A stretch of 32,562 bases of DNA, taken from assembly GCA_030452225.1 (NCBI GenBank), contig JAKDMP010000007.1, positions 1-32,562 on the forward strand. Reading direction: 5' to 3'. Made by a program: the position numbers and the translations under genes. Shown here in pieces: positions 28,507-31,500 of this stretch; position 1 is the first letter of the stretch, and each line of letters begins with the position of its first letter. This stretch comes from Gammaproteobacteria bacterium (GTDB taxonomy: Bacteria > Pseudomonadota > Gammaproteobacteria > JAKDMP01). The notes beneath the pieces were generated by a model. It saw only the letters and a program-made list of their open reading frames with translations, was not told where the DNA came from and searched no databases.

Positions 28507-31500
28507 GTTGGCGGTTCTGGATTGATCGCGGCGGGACGTTTACCGATGTGATCGGTTGCGCGCCGGACGGTGTCCTGCACACGGCGAAGCTGCTGTCGAA
28601 CGATCCCGCGCGCGACGAGGATGCGGTGATTGCGGGCATTCGCCGCATGCTTGGTGCGGAAGCCGATGCGACGCTTCCGCTCGCGCGCATTGGCGAGCTG
28701 CGCGTCGGCACCACGGTCGCGACCAATGCGCTGCTGGAACGCAAGGGCGCGAAGACGCTGTTCGTGACCAACGCCGGACTCGGCGATCTGCTCGTCATCG
28801 GTGATCAATCTCGTCCCGAAATTTTTGTGCTCGATATCAAACGTACGCCGCCGCTTTACGCGCGTGTCGCGACAACGGCTTTGCGCCTCGGTATCGATGG
28901 AAACGAACGGGCTCCACTCAACGAGGCGGCACTTCGCGACGAAATGGAAGCGGCCCGCGCGTCGGGCTGCGCGAGTTGCGCCATCGCGCTCATGCATGCT
29001 TGGCGATATCCCGAACAGGAGGCACGCGTTGCGAAGTTGGCGCATACGGCGGGCTTCGAACGTGTTGTGACCTCGCATGAGGTCTCGCCGCTCATGCGGC
29101 TTGTGCCGCGCGCTGCGACGACGGTAGTGGAAGCCTACCTCGCGCCGGTGGTCGGTCATTACACCTCGCGGTTGGCGGCCGAGCTTCCCGGCGTGCCGCT
29201 GGCGTTCATGAAGTCGGACGGCGGGCTTGCGAGTGCCGATTCGTTTGCCGCCCGCGATGCCCTGCTCTCGGGACCGGCCGGCGGCGTGATCGGCGCGGTG
29301 GAAACGGCGCGGCGCGCCGGCTTCGAGCAGGTGATCGGCTTCGACATGGGCGGCACCTCCACCGACGTGTGCCATTACGCCGGTGCCTGGGAGCGCAAGC
29401 GTGAAACCACCATTGCCGGGGTGCCGCTTTCCAGGCCGATGCTGGCGGTGGAGACGGTCGCTGCGGGCGGTGGTTCAATCGTGGCTTTTGATGAGGATCG
29501 CCTCACGGTCGGGCCGGCTTCGGCCGGCGCCGATCCGGGCCCGGCTTGCTACCGCAAGGGTGGCCCGCTCACGGTGACCGACTGCAATCTTCTCCTCGGG
29601 CGGATTGCCGCCGCGCATTTTCCGCGCCTTTTTGGTCCGAACGGCAACCAGCCGCTGGATGAAGAGGTGGTGCGCACGAAGTTTGCCGCGTTGGGTGAAC
29701 GCATGGTGCAAACACCGGAGCAAGTCGCCGCCGGTGCACTCGCGATCGCGGTCGAGCACATGATCGCCGCGATCCGGCGCATCTCGATTGCACGCGGCCA
29801 CGATCCGGTTGATTGTGTGCTCAATGTCTTCGGCGGCGCGGGCGGCCAGCATGCCTGTGCAGTCGCCGACGCGCTCGGCATCGAAACGGCGTTGCTCCAT
29901 CCACTTGCGGGCGTCCTGTCGGCGTTGGGGATCGGCCTGACCGAATGCAGTGTGCTTCTCGAACGCGGGCTCGAAGCCGAGCTGCCCGAGGCATACTCGG
30001 AGGCGGCGTCGGCCGCGCGTGAGCTCGAGGCCGAGGCGCGCGAACGCCTGACCGAGGAAGCGCCCGATGCCGGCGAAATACATTGTTCGGTCACGGCGCT
30101 GGTGCGCTACGCCGGGAGCGAATCGAGCTTGCCGGTGGACTTCGGCAGCGCCGACGAATTGGCAGAACGATTCAACGAGGCGCATCGTGCGCATTTCCAG
30201 TTCGTCCTGCCGGAGCGGGCCATCGTCGTTGCCGCGTTGCGCGTCGAGGCGCGGGCAAAAAGTGAAGCGCCGCAATGGGCCGAGGCTTCGGCCGGCAACA
30301 TGCCCGAACCACTCGAGTATCGCCAAGTGTACTTCGGAGACGGCTGGGAGGAGGCGCCGTTTTATCGTCGCTGCGATTTGCCGAGCGGTGCAACGCTTGA
30401 AGGCCCGGCGGTGTTGATCGAGCCGACCTCGACGACCATCGTCGAACCCGGCTGGCGAGGCGAGATCGGCAGCGAAGGCGAACTCGTCCTCCAAAAAACC
30501 CCCTCTCCCCGTTGGGGAGAGGGTCACGGTGAGGGGGCTGAGCGAGATGTGACTGAAGAAGGTCATTTCCACCCTCACCCCAACCCTCTCCCTGAAAGAG
30601 GGAGGGAGCAAGAGGAGCAACACGACCCGGTGGTGCTGGAGTTGATGGGCGCGCGCTTCATGGCGATTGCCGAGGAGATGGGCGAGGCGCTCCGGGCGTC
30701 GGCGCAATCGGTGAACGTGCGCGAACGGCTTGATTTTTCCTGCGCCGTGTTCGGGCCGGACGGCGCGCTCGTCGCCAATGCGCCGCACATCCCCGTACAT
30801 CTGGGGGCGATGAGCGCCACCATCCGCGCCTTGATGGCCGCCGAGCCGATGCGCCCGGGCGATGTCTGGGTTACCAACGATGTGTATGCCGGTGGCACGC
30901 ACTTGCCCGACATCACCGTCATCACCCCCGTCTTCGCTGGGGGCCCTCACCCCAGCCCTCTCCCGAAGGGAGAGGGAGCAAGAGGGCAGGCGAGTTCGCG
31001 CACCGTGGAAGAGGGTAGCGCTTCTACCCCTTCTCCCCTTGAGGAAGAGGCCGCATCTTCAACCCCCTCTCCCCTCCGGGGAGAGGGTCGGGGTGAGGGG
31101 ACCGGCCGCGAAGCGGCCGGCGGACAAAGCAGCAACCCGATATTTTTTGTCGCTTCCCGCGCCCATCATGCCGACATCGGCGGCGTGAGCCCCGGCTCGA
31201 TGCCGGCGGCGAGCCGCTACATCGAAGAGGAAGGCGTATTGATTCCTTTCACTCGCCTGGTGGCGGATGGCGAGTTTCGCGAAGCCGCGATTCGCGGCAT
31301 CCTCGAAGGGGCGAGCTACCCGGCACGCAGCGTGGAGCGCAACTTGGCCGATTTCCGCGCCCAAGTGGCGGCCAATGCGCGCGGCGCACGCGGCTTGCTC
31401 GACCTCGCCTGGGCACAGGGGCTGGAGAACACGCACTTCTACATGCGCCACCTTGCCGATTACGCCGAGACCGCCGTGCGCCGGGCGCTCAAGAAACTCC

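Follow-up and report, generated by a model that had tools for sequence, protein, structure and literature searches.

REPIN/RAYT systems consist of short palindromes, probably non-autonomous, that are tied to a separate enzyme gene which they frame. Rickettsia palindromic elements (RPEs), as cited in PMC3733652, are palindromic repeats that lie in frame in ORFs that are probably still functional. In-frame palindromes outside Rickettsia include the GTAG and CGTC REPs, which are intragenic, occur singly and in pairs, are present twice in some genes and include uvrA and recBCD genes among their targets (PMC3733652). The intrastrand-triplex motif TM/PIT has been found in E. coli and in over 260 bacterial genomes; the 23 E. 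coli copies (MG1655 list) are reported as always intergenic, some forming inverted pairs, and the motif showed no link to transposons, phages or plasmids (PMC4666352). In-frame palindromic elements in proteins are already known, and what is new at the locus described here is that TM/PIT lies within coding sequence, with two insertions in a single enzyme gene, one of them in a loop at the metal site.

The window, meaning the whole stretch of DNA that was analysed, is a complete 32,562-nt contig (C102) from a 2.3-Mb genome assembled in 231 contigs. It encodes a fused HyuA-HyuB protein with the Pfam domains Hydant_A_N, Hydantoinase_A, Hydant_A_C and Hydantoinase_B (Table 1), and both the PF02538 domain and an Asp-His-Asp-His metal tetrad are present in this protein. 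The gene is single-copy, a genome search with the HyuAB protein returning only itself, and its frame runs without a break over all codons.

Table 1. Positions of the gene, the palindromic elements and the metal-ligand residues in the window.
Feature	Positions	Strand	Basis
Upstream ORF with HELCHH motif	27868..28506	+	last codons run through degenerate element
Probable degenerate TM dimer over 3' end of upstream ORF	28420..28497		weak: 18.3 and 13.5 bits
Fused HyuA-HyuB (hydantoinase/5-oxoprolinase type), 1276 aa, TTG start	28503..32333	+	ORF, Pfam
Insert A, HyuA/HyuB junction, +28 residues, only open + frame	30497..30610	+	homologue alignment, frame check
TM/PIT copy A1	30501..30535	+	covariance model, 51.8 bits
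TM/PIT copy A2	30572..30606	-	covariance model, 41.9 bits
Asp744, aligned with CapB Asp41	30732..30734	+	alignment
His800 to Asp803 (THLPD), aligned with CapB His99 and Asp102	30900..30911	+	alignment
Insert B, HyuB loop, about 60 extra residues (loop 86 versus modal 25-26)	30939..31133	+	homologue alignment
TM/PIT copy B1, tag then palindrome on + strand	30944..30976	-	covariance model, 48.2 bits
Imperfect middle hairpin CCTTCTCCCCTTGAGGAAGAGG, probably degenerate TM copy	31029..31050		sequence
TM/PIT copy B2, palindrome then GGGGTGAGGG tag	31065..31099	+	covariance model, 56.4 bits
Second hairpin CCGGCCGC-GAA-GCGGCCGG next to tag, counted among extra residues	31102..31120		sequence, fold
His888, aligned with CapB His124	31164..31166	+	alignment

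The open frame passes through two palindromic inserts. The sequence-only reading had described one of them, insert B, as about 157 nt of palindromic repeat lying in frame within the HyuB catalytic domain and turning a normally short loop into a long one, with the frame staying open throughout. Comparison with homologues, which are without this insert, bears out that description: the ORF is continuous, the repeat core (30944-31099) spans 156 nt, and the loop from THLPD to HHADIGG has 86 residues versus 23-34 in aligned homologues, the sole exception being a Sphingomonas homologue (L033) with 57. The size given for the insertion, roughly 65 aa, was close, the measured excess being 60 aa (180 nt). 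An equally long loop in repeat-free homologues was looked for and not found among them, and these lengths rule out a long loop as a normal feature of the family. In a survey of the class, the loops of the other full-length matches to the fused-type gene exceeded that of the query by about 17 aa at most.

Neither insert is present in G001, the one further genome of the family that was compared. Its protein matches end at residue 812 of HyuAB and restart at 877; in G001 the two matches are separated by 12 nt, and nothing aligns to residues around 813-876. Protein identity at this nearest empty site is only about 60%, so the base-exact ends of the inserts are not fixed. The core of insert B is composed of two 33-35 nt motifs in opposite orientation, tags outward, with an imperfect third hairpin between them, and the insert folds far better than its dinucleotide shuffles (z = -4.5). 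The peptide EAAGGQSSNPIFFVASR spans its right edge, and GEGTGR is an example of insert-encoded peptide in HyuAB.

Insert A (30497-30610), which the sequence-only reading overlooked, consists of the repeat seen in insert B and likewise lies in frame, at the HyuA/HyuB junction, which has 58 residues in the window protein versus about 30 in others. Copies A1 and A2 are inverted relative to each other, their tags pointing inward; one of the three plus-strand frames is open across the insert, namely the coding one, and as RNA it gives a near-complete hairpin (-60.6 kcal/mol, z -4.5). Perfect 9-bp stems with loops of 3-6 nt occur in the 32.5-kb window only within the two hyuAB inserts. At the right end of the degenerate element upstream lies an AGGAGG (28489-28494), 8 nt before the hyuAB TTG start. 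The upstream ORF had no Pfam match; its HELCHH is a metallopeptidase-like motif, and the degenerate repeat encodes its C terminus. Two further repeats were seen in the window. One is a different palindromic repeat, starting CCGTCATGCCGGCGAAGGCCGGCATCC, whose two 102-nt copies (4888-4989 and 27572-27673) are 75% identical and resemble CGTC-type REPs. The other is a 51-nt direct repeat (AGNAGGGTGGATAAGCCTGCG..., 88% identical) at 11183-11233 and 32361-32411, 21 kb apart, the latter copy directly after hyuAB.

Judged by its sequence plan, the repeat in both inserts is the TM/PIT intrastrand-triplex motif of PMC4666352. Copies in this genome read CCCTCTCCC-loop-GGGAGAGGG-NN-GGGGTGAGGG, which matches the published TM consensus (36 nt, with a 9-bp pyrimidine/purine palindrome and the GGGGTGAGGG tag), and they share with TM/PIT its 33-37 nt plan, its dispersal and its inverted pairs, being found at about 25 places in 2.3 Mb with inverted pairs on contigs C102 and C114. 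Four of these roughly 25 copies sit in hyuAB, where they score 42-56 bits (E 1e-7 to 1e-10) against a covariance model that was built, from an alignment of equal-length copies, partly on two of the hyuAB copies themselves; the window scores are therefore not independent, whereas the literature match is. Finding the copies took variable spacing together with the covariance model, a fixed 5-nt-spacer pattern returning one palindrome only. A known structured RNA was dropped as the identity of the repeat, Rfam giving no structured-RNA family match at E <= 0.1.

The copies of this genome differ from those of E. coli in their setting. TM/PIT in E. coli is reported as intergenic and without a mobile-element link, whereas here it lies in frame in protein genes and elsewhere frames DUF559 genes; an always intergenic position characterises the copies in E. 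coli and stands outside the sequence definition of TM. Besides hyuAB, TM copies lie in frame in Pfam-supported ORFs of UvrA, CopA, RecD and HsdM type (L132, L133, L136, L152), near a contig end in the UvrA-type ORF and in the linker joining the Cu-oxidase domains in the CopA/CopB-type multicopper oxidase. The insert in the RecD-type ORF holds several degenerate TM copies. Long stop-free frames over TM copies at L142, L143 and L150 were dropped as genes for want of a Pfam match, and such a frame at L131 was likewise not accepted as a gene.

The sequence-only reading had also likened the element to the RPEs, as a palindrome tolerated in protein but with another sequence and host. This is supported, and the repeat could then be named as TM/PIT. 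In-frame insertion in ORFs is common to the RPEs and the hyuAB inserts; sequence, structure and host are probably different. The UvrA- and RecD-type ORFs parallel the uvrA and recBCD targets of the GTAG/CGTC REPs, but the repeat departs from these REPs in its tag (CCCTCACC/GGTGAGGG) and in its stem, which starts CC/GG and not A/T as in CGTC. In REPIN/RAYT systems the framed enzyme gene is a Y1 HuH transposase, whereas the gene framed here is DUF559 (Vsr-like nuclease). The genome contains three Y1_Tnp (RAYT-type) loci, none with a TM copy nearby, and RAYT is ruled out as the TM partner in this genome.

Other palindromes have entered homologues of hyuAB. About ten of 76 homologues have in-frame palindromic inserts of other sequences, and since some of the species are related, the independent events number fewer than ten. 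The HyuB loop occupied by insert B was also entered in Sphingomonas L033, by a dispersed repeat of that genome; in the homologue designated L078, the HyuA/HyuB junction contains a repeat that is dispersed in that genome, and another homologue (L097) has a palindromic insert at HyuA residue 229. Palindromes are present in a HyuA loop near residue 603 in L023, L027, L029, L033, L043, L058, L061 and L070. This loop (~1740-1850 nt into the gene) bears differing palindromes in several alphaproteobacterial homologues and has the appearance of a recurrent landing site. Long open frames are retained in most homologues with palindromic inserts. L033, with its two repeat inserts, has an in-frame TAG in HyuA (about 2612), either decay or an assembly error, and its gene may be decaying. 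Palindromes are enriched about threefold in hyuAB over its flanks (p 0.001 per palindrome, 0.04 on a rough event count), a comparison uncorrected for related species and not relied on.

Insert B sits in a metal-site loop of an apparently intact enzyme. The metal ligands of CapB are Asp41, His99, Asp102 and His124 (PMC8453981); all four HyuB counterparts are kept, together with the HyuA ATP motifs, and insert B falls between Asp803 and His888. The structure of CapB, the caprolactamase from P. jessenii (6yra, PMC8453981), has the HyuB fold and metal tetrad in common with the window protein, but a turn of about three residues where the latter has 60 extra. An AlphaFold2 model of HyuB with 49 homologues (pTM 0.86) matches N-methylhydantoinase 9h03 and CapB 6yra_B, and its pLDDT falls below 50 only in local residues 120-170, which are flanked by confident strands (100-107 and 178-185). 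The model predicts insert B to be a disordered surface loop, forming the floppy tip of a beta-hairpin on an intact fold, and we infer that the HyuAB protein is active.

TM copies are associated with DUF559 genes in the genome itself and across Proteobacteria. Two DUF559 genes of the genome lie directly beside TM copies, one (C107) between an inverted pair and the other (C100) with a copy on one side. Of the own-genome loci, L137/L138 has an ORF that continues through the TM copy on either side; the other locus is L149. A class survey of 274 genomes comprised 30 DUF559 loci (L176-L205), and a TM match was found at 22 of these; counting copies no more than about 150 nt away, 19 loci had one upstream, 19 had one downstream and 17 had both. 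The nearest upstream copy was on the plus strand in 18/19 cases and the nearest downstream copy on the minus strand in 17/19, and TM density was 4.6/kb within about 150 nt versus 0.19/kb beyond. TM model matches numbered 101 in 93 kb of DUF559 loci, compared with a single match in 104 kb of sequence surrounding the HyuB genes that served as class controls. By genome, TM was present in 47/59 with a strong DUF559 match versus 82/274 overall (odds ratio 20, p 1.2e-19, phylogeny ignored), leaving 12 of the 59 DUF559 genomes that lack a TM match, and 35 genomes in which TM occurs but a strong DUF559 match does not. DUF559 loci with no TM match often had other inverted palindromes on the same plan, and the inverted flanks of 24/30 class loci exceeded every one of 75 displaced controls.

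A phylum sample (28 loci, L242-L269) shares some genomes with the class sample but none of the first 30 loci. TM was nearby at 19/28, oriented as in the class at 13/14 upstream and 14/14 downstream positions, and inverted flanks exceeded all controls at 13/28 loci. With the two samples pooled, tags point inward in 31/33 upstream and 31/33 downstream cases. Direct flanking of DUF559 genes by inverted TM copies with tags inward was thus found in the own genome, the class and the phylum, and in Sphingomonas and Bauldia genomes, too, palindromes lie alongside DUF559 loci. DUF559 proteins are PD-(D/E)XK/Vsr-like nucleases, and VsrA, the Caulobacter DUF559 protein, is a proposed mismatch-repair endonuclease, not a transposase (PMC12907096). 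Among the open-access papers searched, the titles and abstract openings of those that mention DUF559 gave no pointer to such repeats, and PMC12907096 draws no link between the two.

We consider it highly likely that a TM/PIT element inserted in hyuAB and that the gene stayed intact. Comparison with G001 shows that TM/PIT inverted pairs entered hyuAB in this lineage after the split from that genome. The element has no stop codons in most frames and encodes a peptide rich in Pro, Gly and Glu; having inserted by multiples of three where the protein is flexible, at the subunit junction and at a beta-hairpin tip, it left the gene open and the four ligands in place. Selection probably kept only in-frame, loop-located copies. 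Two clear inserts and a degenerate third element at one gene, together with the stop codon and two inserts of the Sphingomonas homologue, could instead mark hyuAB as a pseudogene in early decay, its enzyme unneeded and its frame open by luck; we find this unlikely given 1276 open codons, an insert A whose only open plus-strand frame is the coding one, intact ATP-site and metal-ligand residues, and the long open frames of most palindrome-bearing homologues. Recruitment of the inserts, for example as mRNA hairpins that adjust how HyuB is translated or as a linker or loop with a role in the protein, would accord with the stable RNA hairpin of insert A and with an AGGAGG supplied by the degenerate element before the TTG start, yet sites and sequences vary between lineages, G001 does without the inserts, Rfam gave no family match and the loop is predicted to be disordered, making recruitment very improbable. 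Repeats are assembly hazards, and the genome is a fragmented metagenome bin, but a chimera or collapsed repeat is scarcely credible where both inserts are internal to one contig, in frame and joining parts of one protein, and where the same phenomenon appears in other assemblies and genes.

How the inserted pairs moved is a separate question, on which the evidence is more evenly divided. Because inverted TM copies frame DUF559 genes in fixed orientation across Proteobacteria, the DUF559 protein would be the most likely mobiliser, and the gene-less inverted pairs in hyuAB would be its non-autonomous derivatives; from this association, we put the chance that DUF559 moves TM elements at about even. 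A somewhat less probable reading, limited to the mobiliser, is that TM is not moved by DUF559 and that the nuclease gene homes into, or is preferentially retained between, older TM palindromes. The Vsr-like nuclease affiliation of DUF559 (PMC12907096) and the one-sided TM at some DUF559 loci suit homing or retention, as does the E. coli control genome, in which a DUF559 search gave no match; because E. coli has TM copies nonetheless, TM can persist without DUF559. Against it stand the near-constant inward orientation of the tags, the framing of differing DUF559 genes by differing palindrome families on the same plan, and a gene-less pair showing the layout of insert A.

Returning to DUF559 as the mobiliser, TM/PIT and its relatives across Proteobacteria could be the ends and gene-less derivatives of a DUF559-encoded mobile unit, a second REP-type system independent of RAYT, whose non-autonomous pairs insert in frame within genes and repeatedly enter the same hydantoinase/oxoprolinase loops, a proposal that we regard as evenly balanced between right and wrong. 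A repeat that was called strictly intergenic in E. coli is present within several of one organism's protein genes, even between two metal ligands of an enzyme, and unrelated palindromes have repeatedly inserted in a single gene family. DUF559 offers a concrete, testable candidate for what spreads these widespread repeats.
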